A stretch of 13,055 bases of DNA from Candidatus Auribacterota bacterium (GTDB lineage Bacteria; Auribacterota; Tritonobacteria; UBA1439), in NCBI GenBank assembly GCA_026391995.1, contig JAPLCY010000296.1, forward strand, positions 1-13,055, given 5' to 3'. Both the position numbers and the translations under genes were made by a program. Positions 281 to 9,157 of the stretch are shown here, piece by piece. Position 1 is the first letter of the stretch. Every line of letters starts with the position of its first letter. The notes under the pieces are model-generated. The model was not told the origin of the DNA and searched no databases. It was given only the letters and a program-made list of their open reading frames with translations.

Positions 281-850
281 ATGATTGATCAGGACGCCAT
301 TGCCAGGATCGTGGGTGAGGTTATTTCTCGCTATCCCGCCGGGGTACCGGAGGAGCATCCACCGGCCGTGCCCGCGGAGAGGGTGCGCAGCGTCGCCCTT
401 GCCGCCGACCATGGCGGGGTGGATCTCAAGAACCTGCTGCGGGGATATATGGAGGATCTCGGGTACGCCGTGAAGGACTTCGGGACATATACCCGGGAAT
501 CGGTGGATTACCCCGACTACGCGGCGCGGGTGGCCCATGCCGTCGCGGCAGGAGAATATGACCGAGGGATTGTTATAGACGGCGCGGGGATCGGTTCCTG
601 CATGGCGGCGAATAAGGTCAGGGGTATCCGGGCCGCGATGTGTTATGATCTCAAAACCGCCCTTAACAGCCGCGAGCATAACGATGCAAACGTCCTCACG
701 CTCGGAGGCCCGCTGCTCGAACCGCGCGCCGCAAGGGAGATCGTGAAGGTATGGCTCGAAACGCCGTTCGGCGGGGGCAGGCACCAGCGCCGGGTGGACA
801 AGATCATGGCGATCGAAAATCAGGGATACGAGACAGGGGATCAGGGATAG
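281..850 (+). CDS. rpiB: RpiB/LacAB-family sugar-phosphate isomerase with BMC encapsulation-peptide-like N-terminus
   Basis: This 189-residue protein belongs to the RpiB/LacA/LacB fold, whose members interconvert aldose and ketose phosphates such as ribose-5-P and ribulose-5-P. Family landmarks are D43-H44 (ADHGG), the ESVDYPDYA segment, GIGSCMAANK, SREHNDANVL with H133 (the ring-opening His99 position of E. coli RpiB), and GGGRHQRRV near the C-terminus. Two active-site positions are changed. The CGTG loop of E. coli RpiB (Cys66, Thr68) reads D100-G-A102-G here, so the usual catalytic Cys is Asp and the Thr is Ala. About 35 extra residues precede the fold; residues 1-18 (MIDQDAIARIVGEVISRY) form an amphipathic helix followed by a Pro-rich linker, as in BMC encapsulation peptides. 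An in-frame ATG at 248 would add 11 residues but lies within the promoter. The gene sits 53 nt before deoC, the partner expected in SPU-type BMC loci. Fold assignment is secure; the substrate is not. Confidence 0.88.
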   Translation: MIDQDAIARIVGEVISRYPAGVPEEHPPAVPAERVRSVALAADHGGVDLKNLLRGYMEDLGYAVKDFGTYTRESVDYPDYAARVAHAVAAGEYDRGIVIDGAGIGSCMAANKVRGIRAAMCYDLKTALNSREHNDANVLTLGGPLLEPRAAREIVKVWLETPFGGGRHQRRVDKIMAIENQGYETGDQG

Positions 851-903
851 GTAAAAGGCCGATAGTGAAAGCCCTGAGTGGCTGAACTCATACAGGAGAA
901 TCC

Positions 904-1553
904 ATGGACAGCAAGGAACTGGCTCAACTGGTGACACGCGAAGTACTCGCGCGGTTGAAGGGGGCGTCCGGTCAGGGGCCCACCTGCGGGGCGGCGGATA
1001 TCTGCTCGGCGTGCGGCAGGTGCGTCGTCGCGCGCGAGGACGCGGTCCGGCAATTCATGCAGGGCGGGGCATCCCGCATCTCGGCGGCCGGCGGGGTGGG
1101 GAAGGTCGCCGTCGACCTTGCCCGGCTGATCGATCACACCCTGAGTGCGATATGGTGATCAATATCGGCGCGTTGAAGTCGGGAGATTTTGAGTTTGTGG
1201 AACGGGACATCCGGGGCGTTGTCAGGGCCGCGCGCCAGGGGACGGTGGTCAAGGTGATCCTGGAAACCTGTCTCCTCACCGACGCCGAAAAGGTCAAGGC
1301 GTGCGAGCTCTCCAGGAAGGCGGGCGCCGATTATGTCAAAACCTCCACCGGTTTCAGCAGCGGTGGCGCGACCGCCGAGGATATCGCGTTGATGCGCAAG
1401 GCCGTGGGGCCCGAGATGGGCGTCAAGGCATCGGGCGGCGTGCGTTCCAAGGAGGATGTCGAGAAGCTGGTCAAGGCGGGCGCCACGCGCATCGGGGCGA
1501 GCGCCAGCATCAAGATCGTCTCGGGCAAGGGAGGCGGCGGGGAGAAGTATTGA
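904..1553 (+). pseudogene. deoC: deoC, deoxyribose-phosphate aldolase with BMC-type N-terminus, broken by an internal deletion and frameshift
   Basis: DeoC cleaves 2-deoxyribose-5-phosphate to acetaldehyde and glyceraldehyde-3-P. The first frame (904-1158) starts at an ATG with AGGAG at 894-898. It encodes an amphipathic helix ([15 protein letters not shown]) like an encapsulation peptide, a Cys cluster (C28, C34, C37, C40), then LARLIDHTL, the first barrel strand. The frame then runs into TGA. DeoC sequence resumes in another frame at about 1145 with [14 protein letters not shown] and continues through [15 protein letters not shown] (Schiff-base Lys) and VKASGGVR to TGA at 1551-1553. The Asp of CDMVIN and both catalytic Lys are kept. 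By comparison with short bacterial DeoC proteins, about 70-75 residues between IDHTL and the ECDMVIN strand are missing. The missing length must be 1 modulo 3, so neither readthrough nor a one-base correction repairs it. It is either a real lesion or an assembly loss. ATG 1152 could start the C-terminal part but has no ribosome site. Confidence 0.85.
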
Positions 1554-2502: not shown

Positions 2503-4257
2503 ATGAAGCGAGTATTAACGCTTACGAGCGCCGTGATGGTGGTGACGGCGATGCTATGCGCGTCCGCGGGCGATCCCCGGCCGTTCCGCTTTGGTGTCAC
2601 CTTCCCTTCTCCGGAGTGCACGACTCGATTCACGCGAACCCGCGTGGCCGGCTTCGCCCCCCCGTCCGGGACGGTGGCCATTCAGGGCGCGGCGGTAAGG
2701 GTATATCCGACAGGGGCGTTCGTGGGGCTTGTCCCCCTGAGGGAGGGAGACAATACGATAGAGATTGTCGCCGCGCAGGGGCGCGCGACACAGCGGCGGC
2801 TCCTGAAGGTGCGCTGTGTCGACCCGATCACGACCTCGCCTGCGCAACCGCTCGCCATTGACAGGGTGTTGTGCGAGCCGTCGATGGATATGATTCTCCA
2901 GGAGGGGGATCTCGTGAAGGTGCGGTGCAAGGGCAGTCCCGGCATGGCGGCATCCTGGACACTCGGCGGTGCGGCGAACGATCTACCGCTCGGGGAGGGA
3001 GAGCCGGCGGCGCACGGGACGCTCATGGGGGTGCGCGGTATCTACCGGGACACCTACCGGATCAGGGCCGGCGACAGGGTCAAGGGGAAGAGGATTCAAT
3101 TCACGTTTCGCGATGCGACCGGTCACGTGGTCACTGCGCTCTCGCCCGGGCGCGTGACGTTAGTGCCGGGGATATTCCTCACGCGGGGCGTGGTCGGGGC
3201 GGGTGGCGGGACGCTTATCGAGGAGCCGGGAGGGAGGAAGGTGGGCGAGCTTCCGCCGGGAACACGCGTGAACCTGGGCGGGGAGGCCGGCGGCTACTGG
3301 CGCGTCCTGCTTTCGCGCGACGATCGGTGCTGGCTGGCGAAGGAGAGTGTCAATGTGATGATGGGTGAAGGGGGATGGGACCCGGTCACGGCAGGATCGC
3401 CGACGGTCACCCCCGGGCGGGACAAATCGCGCATCACGCTGCCGGTGAGTGGCCCGGTCCCCTATCGGGTGACCTATGGCGCGGATGGCCGCGAGTTACA
3501 GATCGAGCTTTTTGGCGCCGCGCCGCCGAAGATAATCTCCGGTCTGGAGGCGAATGGGGCGGTGAAGGATGTCAGGCTTGACCGGGGGCCCGAGGGATGC
3601 GTGCGGCTGGTGGCGCGGCTGCGTGGAGACGCCCTGTGGGGGTACACCTGCGCCCTTGCCGGCGGCGCCATCGCGTGCGAACTGAACAATCCTCCCGGGA
3701 AGAGCTTGAAGCGGCTCACCGTGGCCATCGATCCGGGGCATGGGGGGAGGCAGCCCGGCGCGGTGAGTCCTACAGGGCTCCTTGAAAAGGATGTCAACCT
3801 TGCCGTTGCGCAGGCAGCCGCAGAGTACCTCAAGAAGAAGGGGGCGCGGGTTGTGCTCACGCGGTGCGGGGATGAGACCGTGTCGCTGGCGGAGCGCCTC
3901 GGACGTGCTCGTGCGGCGGGGGCGGACCTGTTCGTGAGTATTCACCATAACTCCCAGTCGGAGCACGGCGACCCGCTCGCGTCCCGCGGCGGGGACGCGT
4001 TCTACGGCATCGAGCATTCCCGACGGCTCGCCGACACAATGCTCGGCAGCCTCGCCCGGAGCGGCGTGCGGGTCAACGGCGTTCAACGGGAAGGGTATGC
4101 CATCGTCCTGCCGACCGAGTTCCCCGCCGTACTGGTCGAGTGCGGCTACCTGTCGCATCCCGGAGACGAGGCGGAGCTGTTGAAGAAGTCGAGCGCGAAG
4201 CGCGTCGGGCGCGCCGTGGGCCGCGGGGTTGAAGAATATGTGAAACGGTGTGGTTGA
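2503..4257 (+). CDS. Secreted multidomain N-acetylmuramoyl-L-alanine amidase (Amidase_3)
   Basis: The 584-residue protein cleaves the bond between N-acetylmuramic acid and the stem peptide of peptidoglycan. Residues 1-22 form a signal peptide (MKRVLTLTSAVMVVTAMLCASA). Next come an Ig-like or glucodextranase-B-like module (about 45-105, with PPSGTVAIQG and LREGDNTIEI), a beta-rich region (about 110-225), an SH3-like segment (about 230-290, GTRVNLGG...GYWRVLL) and an AMIN-like beta region (about 305-400). The catalytic domain spans about 404-580. Its zinc ligands are H413 in DPGHGG, E428 and H481 in SIHHN, and the catalytic Glu is E546 in LVECGYLSHP. All are present, so it should be active. An in-frame TTG at 2494 would add three residues but overlaps the -10 box, so ATG 2503 is preferred. 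It is followed closely by a GH3 gene; together they suggest wall turnover or cell separation. The accessory domains are assigned by pattern and are less certain than the catalytic domain. Confidence 0.9.
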   Translation: MKRVLTLTSAVMVVTAMLCASAGDPRPFRFGVTFPSPECTTRFTRTRVAGFAPPSGTVAIQGAAVRVYPTGAFVGLVPLREGDNTIEIVAAQGRATQRRLLKVRCVDPITTSPAQPLAIDRVLCEPSMDMILQEGDLVKVRCKGSPGMAASWTLGGAANDLPLGEGEPAAHGTLMGVRGIYRDTYRIRAGDRVKGKRIQFTFRDATGHVVTALSPGRVTLVPGIFLTRGVVGAGGGTLIEEPGGRKVGELPPGTRVNLGGEAGGYWRVLLSRDDRCWLAKESVNVMMGEGGWDPVTAGSPTVTPGRDKSRITLPVSGPVPYRVTYGADGRELQIELFGAAPPKIISGLEANGAVKDVRLDRGPEGCVRLVARLRGDALWGYTCALAGGAIACELNNPPGKSLKRLTVAIDPGHGGRQPGAVSPTGLLEKDVNLAVAQAAAEYLKKKGARVVLTRCGDETVSLAERLGRARAAGADLFVSIHHNSQSEHGDPLASRGGDAFYGIEHSRRLADTMLGSLARSGVRVNGVQREGYAIVLPTEFPAVLVECGYLSHPGDEAELLKKSSAKRVGRAVGRGVEEYVKRCG

Positions 4258-4273
4258 TGATGGGGTGCGGGGG

Positions 4274-5705
4274 ATGAGGATATACGGCAACAGGTTCATC
4301 TTCGGTTTCGAGGGCTTGTCGCCTAAAGCCCTGCTCACGGAGATGATCACCGAGAACAGGGTGAGCGGCGTAATCCTCTTTGCGCGGAATATCGGGGACG
4401 GCTCTCAGGTGGCGGCGCTCTGCGCCGAGCTTCAGGACATGAGGCGCCGTATGCTCGGGCGCGACCTTCAAGGCGGTCGGCTACTCCATCGGCTGTGAGC
4501 TCCGGGCAATTGGCGTCACCATGAATCTCGCACCAGTCCTTGATATCAACGCGCACGCGCACAATCCGGTGATCGGCGTGCGCTCCTTCGGGGATAATGC
4601 CGCTGCGGTCGCCGCCTTCGGCGACGCCACGATCCGGGGGATTGAGAGGGCGGGGTGCGCGGCGGTGGCGAAGCATTTTCCGGGGCTGGGCTTTGCGGAG
4701 AGGGACGCCCACCACGAGCTGCCCATGATCCCGAAAGACATCCACGAGCTGGAGCGGGAGGATCTCCTCCCGTTTATGAGCGCGATCAAGGCGGGTGTGA
4801 CCGGGATCATGCTCAGCCATGCCCACTATCCGGCGTTCTCCGCCCGGCCCGCCAGCCTTTCACATTCGGTCGCGCACACGCTGCTGAGAGGACGCCTCGG
4901 GTTTGGCGGCATTTCGCTTACGGACGATCTCGAGATGGGCGCGGTCAGTGTCCAGCGCGGCGTCGCGGACGCGGCGGTCAAGGCATGCGCGGCGGGAGCC
5001 GACCTTCTTCTCATATGTCACTCATGGAACGAGCAGCGGGGAGCCCTCGCGAAGCTCTCGGAGTTCATCAACGGAGGGAAGCTGTCTGGCGAGAGATTGA
5101 GAGAGAGCGTGCGGCGGGTGCGCTGGCTGAAGGAGCTCACGCGTGAACGGCTCTCCCGCGTGCCCGAGGCGCCGGTCGTGGACGGTGCCCGCCTCGCGCA
5201 GGAGGTGGCGGATGCGGCGATCACCCTCGTCGGCGATGAGGGGCGGCTTCTCCCCCTTGTCCCTGACCGTGCGCTGAAACTCCTCCTCGTGTACGCTGAA
5301 CAGCGGGCGCTCACCGCCGTGGAGGAGGGGACCGGGTCCATGGGGGCTCTTGCATCGGCGTTCCGGGAACGCTTCCCCGTCGCCACGATGCTTCCGTTCG
5401 GGGTAATTCCCTCAGCCCAGGAGCGCGCGGCGGTCATAAGGGCGCTCGATGAAGCGGATTTGCTGGTGGTCGGGACATGCAACGCGCACCTCTACAGTCA
5501 GCAGGCGGCGTTGCTCAAGGAGATCGCGGCGAAGGGGAAGCGGGGGATATATATCGCGTTTCGCAATCCGTACGACCTGGAGCTTTATCCCCGCGGCGCC
5601 GCCCGGATCGCGGCGTATGGGTCGGATCCGCACACCATTGCCGCGGTGCGTAAAGTCATTTTTGGAGAGCACACCGCGACGGGAAAACTTCCGGTAAAGT
5701 TGTAA
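4274..5705 (+). pseudogene. Glycoside hydrolase family 3 (NagZ/beta-N-acetylhexosaminidase-like), disrupted by an internal deletion and frameshift
   Basis: The first frame (ATG 4274 to TGA 4496-4498) gives IFGFEGL, VSGVILFARNIGD and QVAALCAELQDM, the expected N-terminus of GH3 N-acetylglucosaminidases. Homology then jumps frame: from about 4455 the other frame reads SGATFKAVGYSIGCEL and continues as MNLAPVLDINAH, NPVIGVRSFGD, AKHFPGLG, ERDAHHELP (the His of the NagZ-type acid/base pair) and SLTDDLEMGAV (nucleophile Asp). A GH3 C-terminal domain follows to TAA 5703-5705. The segment that normally holds IDQEGGRV is absent from both frames; I estimate 30-45 missing residues, of length 2 modulo 3. 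Upstream in-frame GTG starts (4250, 4265) exist, but ATG 4274 behind a G-rich stretch is preferred. There is a 16-nt gap after the amidase stop, so the two were probably one transcript. Intact, it would trim GlcNAc from peptidoglycan fragments. No signal peptide is seen, so it is probably cytoplasmic. The stop codon lies inside a dispersed repeat. Confidence 0.8.
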
Positions 5706-5739
5706 CGCACATTGTAGCACACACTTTAGTGTGCGATCA
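5699..5739 (+). repeat. 41-nt dispersed repeat, copy B
   Basis: This is the second copy of the element at 2344-2384, with four substitutions. It supplies the last codons and stop (TTG TAA) of the GH3 gene and ends 12 nt before the DUF72 ATG. The hairpin is shorter than in copy A because of a mismatch (CACAC-TTTA-GTGTG, 5720-5733). Confidence 0.75.
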
Positions 5740-5751
5740 GCCGCACCCCTG

Positions 5752-6639
5752 ATGAATACACATGAGGTATACATAGGCACGGCGGGCTGGAGTTACGATG
5801 ACTGGAGCGGCGTCGTCTATCCGGCGGGAAGGCCGCGCGGTTTCGACCCTCTCGAATACCTCTCGCGCTTTTTGGACTGCGTGGAGATCAACAGCTCCTT
5901 CTACCGGATCCCCGAACGCCGCGACTGCGCGGCATGGCTCCGCAGAGTTGAGCGCAATGACCGTTTCCGATTTACCGCGAAGCTGTTCCGGGGATTTACC
6001 CACGAAATCGGGAGTTGCGGTGACGCCGAAGCCGCGCATTTCATGGAGGCCATGAGTCCCCTTCGTGGGGCGGCTCGGCTCGGCGCCGTGCTGGTCCAGT
6101 TTCCCTGGTCATTCAGGGATACGCCCGAGCATCGCGGCTACCTCGGCGCCCTTTTTGACATGTTCAAGCCAATGCCGCTCGTCCTCGAGGTGAGGCATTC
6201 GAGCTGGCTTTTCCCCGGGCTCTTTGCGTCACTCCGCGAGCGCGGGATAGGATTCTGCAATATCGATCAGCCGCTCTTCCACGACTCCATTCCACCCTCC
6301 GCCCGTTCGACCTCTTCGACAGGTTACTTCTGCCTTCACGGACGGAACGCCGACAACTGGTTCAGGGAGGGAGCGGGCCGTGATGCCCGTTACGATTATC
6401 TCTACTCCGATGAGGAACTTGAGGGCTGGGTTGACCGGATACACACGGTTTCCGGCGCCCTCCCCGCAACCTACGTGGTCATGAACAACCATTTCAAGGG
6501 CCAGGCGGTCTGCAACGCGTTGCAGGTGAAGGCGCGCGTCTCCGGCGGCAGGGTTCCGGTGCCCGGAACGCTGCTCGGGGCATTCCCCCGGCTTAATCTC
6601 ATTGCCCGGCGTGAATCCGTGCAGGGCGAGCTGTTCTGA
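5752..6639 (+). CDS. DUF72 (YecE-like) family protein
   Basis: The 295-residue protein is a full-length member of the DUF72 TIM-barrel family. Conserved blocks in order are YIGTAGWSYDDW (near residue 8), VEINSSFYRIP, RFTAKLFRGFTH, VLVQFPWSF, LVLEVRHSSW, FCLHGRNADNWF and YVVMNNHFKGQAVCNALQVK. The biochemical role of the family is not established. Conserved acidic, His and Asn residues on the barrel face have led to suggestions of a nucleic-acid or sugar-related function. ATG 5752 gives the usual family N-terminus. An in-frame GTG at 5731 lies inside the dispersed repeat and is less likely. No Shine-Dalgarno is visible before 5752. It follows the GH3 gene by 46 nt with no obvious functional tie. 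Confidence 0.9.
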   Translation: MNTHEVYIGTAGWSYDDWSGVVYPAGRPRGFDPLEYLSRFLDCVEINSSFYRIPERRDCAAWLRRVERNDRFRFTAKLFRGFTHEIGSCGDAEAAHFMEAMSPLRGAARLGAVLVQFPWSFRDTPEHRGYLGALFDMFKPMPLVLEVRHSSWLFPGLFASLRERGIGFCNIDQPLFHDSIPPSARSTSSTGYFCLHGRNADNWFREGAGRDARYDYLYSDEELEGWVDRIHTVSGALPATYVVMNNHFKGQAVCNALQVKARVSGGRVPVPGTLLGAFPRLNLIARRESVQGELF

Positions 6640-6692
6640 ATCAGCCGCAATCCCTTTCTCTCTTGCTCCGATAGAGTTACAAGAGATGTATA

Positions 6693-6721
6693 TTGACCCG
6701 CGGGAGCGGGCGTGCTAGTCT
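6693..6721 (+). promoter_or_regulatory. Putative sigma-70 promoter
   Basis: TTGACC (6693-6698) and TAGTCT (6716-6721) are 17 nt apart. It would start transcription near 6728, leaving a long leader of about 230 nt before the GTG at 6957. Transcripts would pass through the folded element at 6778-6900. The spacer is very GC-rich. Confidence 0.45.
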
Positions 6722-6777
6722 AACTTGGTTATTCATCAGGCTGATAAAGGCGCAATTATGGCGGCTTAAAAAAATAC

Positions 6778-6900
6778 AACCGCGGATTTCGCGCCTGCCT
6801 GCCGGTCCTTCAGATGCTGAGCATCTTCAGGATGCGAAGTACAGGCAGGGATTGGACGGATTCCGTATAAGAATTCGCGCAATCGGCGTAATCCGCGGTT
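6778..6900. repeat. Inverted-repeat element enclosing a REP-like palindrome
   Basis: Outer arms AACCGCGGATT (6778-6788) and AATCCGCGGTT (6890-6900) are exact reverse complements and extend imperfectly inward. Inside lies CCTGCCTGCCGG (6794-6805) paired with CAGGCAGG (6842-6849), and at its core the hairpin AGATGC-TGA-GCATCT (6812-6826). It looks like a REP-type element inside, or fused to, a second palindromic element. No ORF of transposase type is present, so mobility would need an enzyme elsewhere. Confidence 0.7.
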
Positions 6901-6956
6901 AAAACGTCAAAAGTTGGTGAATAGGTCAGGCTGAAATTGATTTTCGGAGGAGGATA

Positions 6957-7433
6957 GTGATCGACAGGGTTCTCAATCGGCAGGTTGGCGAGCTTGAGGG
7001 GGTCATCGTGCTCTGGCAGAGACTGTGCGCGATGATTCGCTCCTCGCGGAAAGACCGCCCGGGCGATATGGATGCCGTGAGCGGGCTGCGGGGCGAACTC
7101 GCGCGGCGGTGCCCTCCGCTCATGGAAAGCCTCGAAGTGGCCCCGGAGGAATGGGCCGAGAGCGCGCAGCTGCTGGGGAACCTGGGCAGTCATGATTTCC
7201 GCGGCGAATGCACCGATCTCCGGTGGAAGATGATGGAGGAGTCGATGGGGCGCGGCGAGATTGTCCTGCAGGGGATGTTGGGCATGCTCCAGGCCCGGCA
7301 GCGGCAGCTCGCCGGGTTGAGCGCACTCGCGTGTGCGGGGCGCCGTATCCTGGGCTCCTGGCCGTGCAGGCTTCTGTACGTTGTCATGGGAGTCGTGATT
7401 ATCTTTCTTGTATTGCGGATTGTTTTACGGTAG
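6957..7433 (+). CDS. Hypothetical protein with C-terminal membrane anchor
   Basis: The protein has 158 residues and starts at GTG 6957, chosen because GGAGGAGG ends 3-4 nt upstream. The first 135 residues are largely helical by composition, soluble and rich in Leu, Arg and Glu, with scattered Cys and Met. The last 21 residues (RLLYVVMGVVIIFLVLRIVL) form one transmembrane segment ending in Arg. It should be tail-anchored with its bulk in the cytoplasm. I recognise no family. The helical N-terminal part is loosely reminiscent of FlgN-type or flagellar/secretion chaperones, but the resemblance is too weak to name it. It lies 97 nt before an HU-family gene on the same strand, and a promoter-like pair lies about 235 nt upstream. 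Confidence 0.75.
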   Translation: MIDRVLNRQVGELEGVIVLWQRLCAMIRSSRKDRPGDMDAVSGLRGELARRCPPLMESLEVAPEEWAESAQLLGNLGSHDFRGECTDLRWKMMEESMGRGEIVLQGMLGMLQARQRQLAGLSALACAGRRILGSWPCRLLYVVMGVVIIFLVLRIVLR

Positions 7434-7494
7434 ACTGTAAACGATAAGCGTGTAGCGTAATAGTATGCAAAGCAAGATGATCCATCTATACACA

Positions 7495-7511
7495 GCGCCG
7501 TGAACCGGCGC
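7495..7511 (+). other. Small hairpin upstream of the HU-family ribosome site
   Basis: GCGCCG (7495-7500) pairs with CGGCGC (7506-7511) around the loop TGAAC, ending 9 nt before the AGGAGG site at 7521-7526. It could influence translation or mark a processed 5' end of the HU mRNA; there is no T-run. Confidence 0.35.
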
Positions 7512-7530
7512 CGTTCAGGGAGGAGGAGAG

Positions 7531-7815
7531 ATGACGAAGCGAGAGTTGGCAATCAGGATTGCGGAGGAGATGAAATTGACGCAGATCACCGTCAAGGAGG
7601 TCATTCAGAAGACGCTCGACTATATAATTGAGAGCCTCGAGCACGGTGAGAGCATTGAGCTCAGGAACTTCGGCGTGTTCAGAATCCGCACCCGCAGGGC
7701 GCGCCTTGGCCGCAACCCGAACAAGCCTGACCAGGAAGTCCGCATACCCGCAAAGCAGGTTCCCGATTTCAAGCCCGGCCGGATAATGAAGGCGAAGGTG
7801 GAGAAGCCTATCTGA
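7531..7815 (+). CDS. HU/IHF-family DNA-binding protein
   Basis: The protein has 94 residues, the normal length for HU. It opens with the helical dimerisation region (MTKRELAIRIAEEMKLT) and continues with the ESIELRNFGVFRIR strand. The DNA-binding arm carries GRNPNKPDQEVRIPA, with the intercalating-Pro region intact, and the protein ends VPDFKPGRIMKAKV. It should bend and compact DNA as a dimer. The usual VPAFKAGK is VPDFKPGR here, and the arm holds an extra Pro-Asp in place of the common TG, as seen in IHF-like variants. Start ATG 7531 follows a strong GGGAGGAGGAGAG site. It is probably transcribed from its own or the upstream gene's promoter; no clear promoter was found in the 97-nt gap. Confidence 0.93.
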   Translation: MTKRELAIRIAEEMKLTQITVKEVIQKTLDYIIESLEHGESIELRNFGVFRIRTRRARLGRNPNKPDQEVRIPAKQVPDFKPGRIMKAKVEKPI

Positions 7816-7961: not shown

Positions 7962-9157
7962 AAGAAACTCCAGCGACCGCGGGGTACCGCAGAGATCCGT
8001 CCCCAGGAGGCCGTGAGGTGGCAGTTCCTTGAGGGGGTCGTCCGTCGCGTCGCCGGCCTCTACGGCTACAGCGAAATCCGCACGCCGATCTTCGAGAGCA
8101 CCGATCTCTTCGTGAGAAGCGTCGGCGAGGTCACCGACATCGTCAGCAAGGAGATATACGGGCGTACCTCGAGAACGGCCTGGACCGCACCGAAAAGTGC
8201 GCGAAGCTCTACTACATCGGCCCGATCTTCCGCTACGAAAAGCCGCAGACCGGGCGCTACCGTCAGCATCACCAGTTCGGCGTGGAGGCGATAGGAATAG
8301 CCGAGCCCGAGGCGGACGCCGAAATCATCGAGATGATCCTCCACCTCTATACCGAGCTCGGCATCACAGGGCTCACCCCCGTGATCAACAGCGTGGGGTG
8401 CAAGGAATGCCGCCCGGGCTACACGAGCACGCTCCGGGGCTATCTGGAGGCCAGGGCCGCCGACCTCTGCGAGGATTGCCGTCGGCGCGTCGTGTTGAAT
8501 CCGCTGCGCGTCTTCGACTGCAAGGTGCCGCGGTGCGGCGCGGTGATCGCCGCCGCGCCGAAGGTGAGCGATAACCTGTGTCCGGCGTGCCGGAGCCACT
8601 TCGAGGCCGTCTGTGTGTCGTTGCGCGCGTCGGGGATAGAGTACGTGGTCAGGCCCCAGCTTGTCCGCGGCATCGACTACTATACGCGGACGACGTTCGA
8701 GATCCTCTCGGGCGAGCTCGGGGCCCAGAACGCCGTGGGGGGAGGGGGGCGCTACAACGATCTCGTGGAGACGCTCGGGGGGCCTCCCACGCCCGCCATC
8801 GGCTTCGGCACCGGAATCGAGCGCGTGTTGATGATCATGGCCGAGCGGGGTATCCCGTGCCCCGGCGACGTGAAGAGGGTGGTGCCGCTGGTCGTGTGGG
8901 AGCGGGAGTGCCTGGTCGCGGCGCGCGTGCTGCTCGCGGGGCTGCGGAGGGGAAATATCCCCGCGGAGATTGATTTCTCGCTGCCGAGCATCAAGTCGCA
9001 GCTCAGGCGCGCCCACCGCGCCGGTGCGCCCCGGGTGCTTATCTTGGGGAAGGATGAGATGGCGCGGAATGTGGTGAAGATCAAGCAGATGGGCGAGGGA
9101 GCGGAGCGCGAGGTGGCGCTCGACGCGGTTGTCAGGGAACTGGGCGGGGCATCATGA
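7962..9157 (+). pseudogene. hisS: hisS, histidyl-tRNA synthetase, with internal deletion/frameshift and no clear start codon
   Basis: HisRS charges tRNA-His. Homology begins at about 7962 (KKLQRPRGTAEIRPQEAV, with the conserved PRGT motif). No ATG, GTG or TTG precedes it in frame before a TGA at 7935-7937; the nearest in-frame start, GTG 8013, would remove PRGT. The first frame runs through RWQFLEGVVRRVAGLYGY to VTDIVSKEIY (8159). It then switches: AYLENGLDRTEKCAKLYYIG resumes in another frame at 8162. About 22 residues normally found here (the TLRPEGT histidine-binding block) are missing. A loss of 64 nt would restore the frame. The rest is normal: motif 2 (FRYEKPQTGRYRQHHQFG), four Cys pairs (GCKECRP, LCEDCRR, DCKVPRCG, LCPACRS), LVRGIDYYTRTTFEI, motif 3 (GFGTGIERVLM) and the anticodon domain, to TGA 9155-9157. 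hisS is normally essential, so a sequence or assembly fault, or a second copy, is more likely than simple inactivation. Confidence 0.88.

Follow-up and report, generated by a model that had tools for sequence, protein, structure and literature searches.

A tagged RpiB-DeoC pair as probable cargo of a scattered, SPU-like bacterial microcompartment in Candidatus Auribacterota

Bacterial microcompartments (BMCs) of the SPU type owe their name to two enzymes, a triose-phosphate isomerase and an aldolase resembling DeoC; an RpiB-like isomerase was noted in all such loci (Axen 2014, PMC4207490); according to the consulted text of Sutter 2021 (PMC8217296), the seven subtypes SPU1-7 share pfam01791 and pfam02502, and the organelles are proposed to use (deoxy)sugar phosphates, in connection with DNA detritus. 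The same text describes FRAG BMCs, whose shell genes are spread over as many as six places, with a BMC-P triplet and no obvious signature enzyme, and some genomes with HO BMCs (Haliangium ochraceum type) that encode remote pfam01791 enzymes with N-terminal extensions resembling encapsulation peptides (EPs). A pfam00596 class II aldolase belongs to SPU-like, PVM and ACI loci, with a C-terminal EP stated for ACI, and an RpiB-like protein is described together with the class II aldolase for the SPU-like locus (PMC4207490 and PMC8217296, in the parts compared).

The window analyzed here is a stretch of 13,055 nucleotides that forms one contig (C319) of a metagenome-assembled genome (MAG; G000) with 395 contigs and 1,814,315 bases (completeness 83.86%, contamination 2.45%). 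It encodes an RpiB-type isomerase followed by a DeoC-type aldolase, and a fragment on a second contig of the same MAG completes the set of features discussed below:

281..850, + strand: RpiB-type sugar-phosphate isomerase with an N-terminal extension, 189 aa, intact ORF (PF02502, LacAB_rpiB, E = 5.2e-54, residues 38-175)
290..328, + strand: predicted encapsulation helix of RpiB (residues 4-16; AlphaFold2; IxxIVxEV majority pattern), then a low-confidence linker to about 388
904..1142, + strand: 5' piece of DeoC, the N-terminal extension and first aldolase residues (LIDHT), 80% identical to residues 1-82 of DeoC from the same-genus relative G001
910..957, + strand: predicted encapsulation helix of DeoC (residues 3-18; AlphaFold2 model of the close relative P0001; conserved in profile A1)
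985..1023, + strand: four-cysteine motif C-x5-C-x2-C-G-x-C in the DeoC extension (C30, C36, C39, G40 and C42 invariant in 10/10 intact relatives)
1142..1143, + strand: point at which 226 bp present in 10/10 relatives are missing, out of frame (DNA alignment; tblastn 904-1143 in frame 1, 1143-1523 in frame 3)
1143..1553, + strand: 3' piece of DeoC, covering the latter half of the aldolase and including VKTSTGF and VKASGG (PF01791 profile 95-217; 85% identity to G001 DeoC over its residues 158-284)
C174 (L009) 76-2, - strand: N-terminal 25 residues of a BMC-type AldDH, helix-like at the N-terminus and truncated where the contig ends (80% identical to the main-locus AldDH of G003, E = 4e-9)

A first-pass annotation, made from the letters of the window, had read the pair as SPU-type cargo and had placed the RpiB N-terminal helix and its linker outside the isomerase fold. 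For RpiB this description stands: about 36 residues precede the Pfam domain, and in the AlphaFold2 model (mean pLDDT 85) residues 4-16 are helical, the fold starts at residue 37, and what lies between (about 17-36) is a linker of low confidence. The helix (DAIARIVGEVISRY) has a hydrophobic moment of 0.61, which is borderline against shuffled sequences (p = 0.051) and is reached by 2.1% of 14-mers in the MAG genes used for comparison; IxxIVxEV is the majority pattern in this helix among 46 aligned relatives. The best 120 matches listed for RpiB, from a search in which scores were computed for only the 8000 candidates sharing most words, include no near-identical allele of the window; the closest non-self full-length proteins are 82-83% identical, and one fragment is 85% identical. 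Near homologues are labeled Candidatus Aureabacteria, Candidatus Euphemobacter frigidus, "bacterium" and, once, Chlamydiota.

No shell protein lies in the window, as had been noted; elsewhere in the genome, where the first-pass annotation had suggested looking, shell genes sit on three other contigs of the same MAG. Profile searches place PF00936 over the cut-off at C174:640-867 and in two domains within one C8 gene, and PF03319 at four places, one on C174 and three in succession on C284; a further PF00936 match (C174:994-1164) lies below the cut-off, with the whole 210-aa protein passing at 26.4 bits. The MAG thus has a shell set of BMC-H, BMC-T and four BMC-P, whose over-cut-off matches are free of stops, and a reading in which the genome has no shell genes is ruled out. 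The C8 BMC-T adjoins a PduS-like gene and carries the CPGKY motif, which is described for PduT homologs and thought to hold an iron-sulphur cluster (PMC6325248, in the part consulted).

The main locus of the relatives runs BMC-T, BMC-H, BMC-P, AldDH, PduS, BMC-T and class II aldolase, and C174 has BMC-H beside BMC-P and AldDH. This contig ends 209 bases past the BMC-P gene, and its last 76 bases encode MNLTEAQIAAIVENVINRLTTEGAF; since this stretch is 80% identical to the N-terminus of the G003 AldDH, the MAG's own genome encodes an AldDH with an N-terminal helix-like stretch. These 25 residues rule out an assembly devoid of BMC-type AldDH; the gene is present at full length in relatives, and two PF00171 matches elsewhere in the MAG look, by eye, like other dehydrogenases. 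Of the aldehyde dehydrogenase and PduL-type cargo that the first-pass annotation proposed to look for, the former is present as these 25 residues, and PF06130 (PTAC) was not found in the MAG's assembly. Among the papers listed for this phylum or for microcompartments, none treats the BMCs of this phylum, judged by title or abstract start.

To follow the DeoC extension across the phylum, profile A1 (built from ten intact DeoC) and PF03319 were both searched in 44 genomes. N-extended DeoC occurs in 11/13 BMC-P-positive genomes vs 0/31 BMC-P-negative ones (Fisher p = 1e-8, kinship ignored), with G000 counted on its 5' piece and G039, whose DeoC has in-frame stops and matches from model position 35, counted as not extended. 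The two exceptions with BMC-P are G019, where the sole DeoC is short, and G028, where a short copy is accompanied by a partial 3' match. Short DeoC is found in genomes without BMC-P (e.g., G015, G023, G026 and G034) and, as a second copy, in several relatives (G001, G003-G006, G031 and G033); genomes with no shell match include copies in which the match begins at about residue 70 (DeoC) or at about residue 27-38 (RpiB). As short DeoC and RpiB occur without shell genes, it is the extension, not the enzyme, that tracks the shell. The RpiB comparison covered 59 genomes, of which 57 have a homologue and only 11 an extended one, all 11 with BMC-H or BMC-P; nine of these match from residue 1-7, and G006 (match from residue 23, judged extended by eye) and G005 (cut by the contig end) were added. 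A second RpiB in the MAG itself (G000:C277) matches from residue 27, without a match to the helix.

The same association was seen in a named set of 80 genome loci, in which an extension of at least 45 aa defined extended DeoC (28 loci) and anything below it short DeoC (52 loci). The fetched piece carries a BMC gene in 20/28 extended loci vs 2/52 short ones, and both short cases (L097 and L140) look extended by eye. PF03319 was then searched in 32 whole genomes, comprising the eight with extended DeoC and no BMC neighbor, four others and 20 short-DeoC controls. BMC-P is present elsewhere in seven of the eight, which are labeled Kryptonia, Eisenbacteria, Bacteroidetes, Riflebacteria, Ignavibacteria, Ignavibacteriales and bacterium BMS3Abin04; the absence of BMC neighbors in L107 and L136 says little because their contigs span only 3-5 kb. 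It is also present in each of the four others (L145, L103, L093 and L094) and in 7/20 controls, with one copy in four, two in two and four in one (G079). With G079 dropped from the copy-number tests (its DeoC is cut at the contig start), at least two BMC-P are found in 7/8 extended vs 2/19 short genomes and at least three in 6/8 vs 0/19. The first-pass annotation had named two findings that would tell against it, a complete genome without any BMC shell genes and the same N-terminal helices on close homologues from genomes that lack shell genes. Neither check, when run, refuted it: shell genes are present in the MAG, and the DeoC extension is absent from all the BMC-P-negative genomes of the phylum and, outside it, occurs without BMC-P in one of the eight. 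This one is L114 (G064, Ignavibacteriae), whose 50-aa extension has no clear helix or cysteines and which is possibly a decayed case.

The position of the pair relative to the shell genes varies among the relatives. In G013, G031 and G033 the distance to the nearest BMC-P triplet gene is 1.6-2.6 kb, and no shell match is listed on its contig in 7/10 relatives (G001-G006 and G021), the pair being near a contig end in G005 and G006. In G002, for example, the pair occupies a 142,587-bp contig and the shell genes lie on C2 and C8, of 249,200 and 132,994 bp. The MAG's own shell genes are in several places (C174, C8 and the C284 triplet), with contig breaks limiting how far scatter can be read in G000. 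Offered the choice between satellite and remnant that the first-pass annotation left standing, the seven relatives favor the former, and the pair is likely a satellite locus. G013 was considered as a counter-example, having an extended pair and no PF00936, and was rejected because it has three BMC-P, of which the closest is 1.7 kb away; the divergent gene beside the pair in G013, G031 and G033 was considered as an AldDH, and the scanned copy, that of G013, encodes an FAD-linked oxidase. The AldDH profile applied to the 80 named loci had included these three proteins, and its labels were set aside.

Based on these observations we conclude, with a probability of roughly 0.87, that the pair is cargo of an SPU-like BMC whose genes are scattered over the genome. 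The N-terminal encapsulation helices would lead RpiB and DeoC to the lumen, an AldDH with its own N-terminal helix would oxidize the aldehyde, and the PduS/PduT-like pair on C8 could pass electrons across the shell. Points against the cargo reading are the window's lack of a shell gene, the broken DeoC frame, the missing PF06130, the unremarkable amphipathicity of the DeoC helix taken alone and the exceptions G019, G028 and L114.

Compared with described SPU BMCs, DeoC (pfam01791) and RpiB (pfam02502) are likewise encoded together, AldDH is a shared component and PduS one shared with some SPU loci (PMC4207490 and PMC8217296, as far as their text was compared); BMC-H and BMC-P are in the same genome, the core enzyme AldDH is represented by its first 25 residues, and extended DeoC stands beside shell genes in several phyla. 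Unlike in SPU loci, the pair of the window's family is encoded away from the shell genes, the MAG's assembly has no PF06130 PTAC match, and the main locus has a class II aldolase with a cysteine-bearing C-terminal tail. Scattered shell genes, a BMC-P triplet and an occurrence in candidate phyla and Ignavibacteriae are shared with FRAG BMCs (PMC8217296, compared text); FRAG BMCs, however, are defined by shell composition, whereas the likeness here is one of gene layout, a tagged RpiB-DeoC pair co-occurs here, and C174 has BMC-H next to BMC-P and AldDH. With HO BMCs the shared trait is the EP-like extension on pfam01791 enzymes encoded elsewhere in the genome, whereas the compared text of PMC8217296 makes no mention, for HO, of RpiB pairing, shell tracking or a cysteine motif.

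The first-pass annotation missed that DeoC (904-1553) is not intact in this assembly. As assembled, the aldolase is in two frames: the first ends at the stop at 1158, the rest continues up to 1553 in another frame, and the 226 bp missing after 1142 correspond to about residues 83-157 of the G001 protein. The frame is intact in 10 relatives. Such a break could mark a decaying remnant, in a lineage that once had SPU cargo and a species that lost DeoC by a real deletion, and we regard this as unlikely, even though the deletion is clean and out of frame against all ten relatives and profile A1 found no DeoC in the MAG beyond the two window pieces. (A PF01791 match on C272, considered as a housekeeping DeoC, is not matched by profile A1 and looks like another class I aldolase.) By tblastn with proteins of relatives, frame-shifting internal gaps also interrupt other genes of the same MAG, which points to the assembly: HisRS (window 8013-9157) around 8156 relative to G004 and a NagZ-like beta-N-acetylhexosaminidase (window 4250-5705) around 4453-4476 relative to three relatives, and the PduS-like gene at 418-1511 of C8 (L010), the neighbor of the PduT-like BMC-T with CPGKY. 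HisRS is normally essential. Decay is further disfavored by the retained DeoC halves, which still have 80% and 85% identity to G001 DeoC, by the open RpiB frame and by the stop-free shell matches. Judged from the sequences, and because these gaps resemble that in DeoC, the break is most likely an assembly error.

As the DeoC copy in the window is broken, AlphaFold2 was applied to DeoC of the relative P0001 (mean pLDDT 79). The model has a helix at residues 3-18, a segment without regular structure and mostly of low confidence at 19-41, helices at 42-45 and 47-55, a strand at 60-63 and the barrel from residue 78; the best Foldseek matches are DERA structures. The hydrophobic moment of the DeoC helix is 0.43, a value reached by 14% of 14-mers and not significant against shuffles (p = 0.40), and we discarded it as proof of the helix. 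Amphipathicity being weak in the single sequence, support for the helix comes from its conservation and not from the moment. The opening of DeoC had been described as an amphipathic helix followed by a flexible linker; the helix is predicted and conserved, whereas its amphipathic character is weak, and the part that follows holds four conserved cysteines and a predicted helix and strand. An EP is typically an approximately 18-residue terminal amphipathic helix with a disordered linker; a helix and a low-confidence linker are predicted in both proteins here, with amphipathicity at p = 0.051 (RpiB) and 0.40 (DeoC).

These properties also admit, with rather low probability, N-terminal helices that serve oligomerization or regulation in a subfamily merely co-occurring with shell genes. 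The encapsulation role is predicted from sequence and models, the DeoC helix is not exceptionally amphipathic, and the extension is partly structured and exceeds the typical EP length, all of which suit such helices. They fit poorly with the phylum-wide tracking of shell genes by the extension, with the helix-like N-terminus that stays where the cysteine part is absent (by eye) and with the similar terminal stretches on the main-locus AldDH (N-terminal, in the MAG's own copy too) and class II aldolase (C-terminal). That the pair is simply a deoC-rpiB operon of nucleoside salvage, with N-terminal extensions that mean nothing, is highly improbable: DeoC and RpiB are common housekeeping enzymes and no shell gene is nearby, but the extensions occur in several phyla and track the shell, the MAG's second RpiB has no helix match, and several relatives have a second, short DeoC.

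Beyond its helix, the DeoC extension of the cargo pair is distinguished by the cysteine motif, which reads C-x(5-7)-C-x2-C-G-x-C across the intact relatives and is invariant in all 10. In the AlphaFold2 model of P0001 the cysteines lie in or next to the low-confidence segment and are not placed confidently. The extension is present in 109 of the 120 proteins nearest to G001 DeoC, with CxxCGxC in 69, at least three cysteines in another arrangement in 39 and fewer in one, a share that is biased upward because the query itself bears the cysteines. In the named set, fewer than three cysteines are found in 8/20 extended DeoC with BMC neighbors (L080, L084, L092, L103, L112, L125, L144 and L148), so the motif is not required for the cargo role; the helix-like N-terminus persists without the cysteine part, by eye, in L112, L144 and L148, among others. 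In the fetched loci a simple purpose-written script called 482 genes and missed some (e.g., DeoC in L045); the pattern C..C[GN].C was found in 17 of the 482: 10 DeoC, two class II aldolases, four PduS-like genes and one other (L051_18), which is ferredoxin-like by eye. This distribution hints at a metal site, and the motif is perhaps a candidate metal or redox site.

CxxCGxC also precedes DeoC in all 14 of the longer fusions (473-511 aa) among the 120 proteins nearest to G001 DeoC. Three of them (P0115, P0057 and P0076) were scanned, and each has Flavoprotein PF02441, one just under the cut-off; with two matches over it, an identification of these proteins as RpiB fusions was rejected. An aldolase-isomerase fusion is on record from Marinimicrobia (PMC4207490, part consulted). 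The order in the fusions is Flavoprotein (PF02441), CxxCGxC segment, DeoC, and P0115 also opens with an encapsulation-like stretch (by eye). In a PDB sequence search with the DeoC profile, every best stretch begins at profile position 67 or later. A search by title and abstract start, with supplements and most subscription papers outside its reach, found no paper treating a cysteine motif in BMC aldolases; the word "cysteine" is absent from the main text of PMC8217296 and, in the compared portions of PMC4207490, concerns AldDH and PduT.

The second aldolase of the system carries a comparable element at its other end. The MAG's own class II aldolase (L170, on G000:C237) has CxxCGxC followed by a helix-like C-terminal end, and CxxCGxC lies within the last 75 residues in 98 of the 120 proteins (P0241-P0360) nearest to the class II aldolase of G006, a biased sample. 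A C-terminal tail with at least two cysteines and then a helix-like end is found in 11/11 BMC-P-positive genomes with a fetched copy vs 0/9 BMC-P-negative ones, whose homologues have 0-1 cysteines in place of such a tail; this tail, too, tracks the shell. The tail takes the form CxxCGxC in six genomes (G000 and G002-G006) and CxC, CxxC or C-x5-C in G019, G021, G028, G031 and G033. One genome thus encodes both aldolase classes (in the window and on C237), each with CxxCGxC near a terminal helix-like stretch. The class II aldolase is shared with SPU-like, PVM and ACI loci; the combination of both classes, both with this motif, differs from those loci as described in the compared text of PMC4207490 and PMC8217296. 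G019 (L067 and L068) combines shell genes with the class II aldolase, lacks extended forms of RpiB and DeoC, and is possibly a variant with the class II aldolase only.

As far as PMC4207490 and PMC8217296 were compared, three findings are new: the extension tracks shell genes across the phylum, the pair belongs to a FRAG-like gene layout, and the two aldolases have a cysteine motif in common. The RpiB-DeoC pair provides candidate signature enzymes for that layout, and a tagged pair of this kind offers the scattered organelles of one candidate phylum, and possibly of others, a testable chemistry, the use of (deoxy)sugar phosphates. That two unrelated aldolases carry the cysteine motif next to a terminal helix is a specific feature, absent from the compared text of the two papers. 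More speculatively, and with doubt outweighing confidence, CxxCGxC and the terminal helix may form a cargo module common to DeoC (N-terminus) and class II aldolase (C-terminus) and also present in the PF02441-DeoC fusions; it might bind an iron-sulphur cluster or zinc, or act as a redox switch, tying the cargo to the PduS/PduT electron path, and FRAG-like organelles in several phyla might then be sugar-phosphate organelles with a remote, tagged DeoC as signature enzyme.

Elsewhere in the window, positions 5731-7815 hold genes for a DUF72 protein, for a short product with no Pfam match (6957-7433) and for an HU-like protein, a trio that is also found together in G005 (L048).
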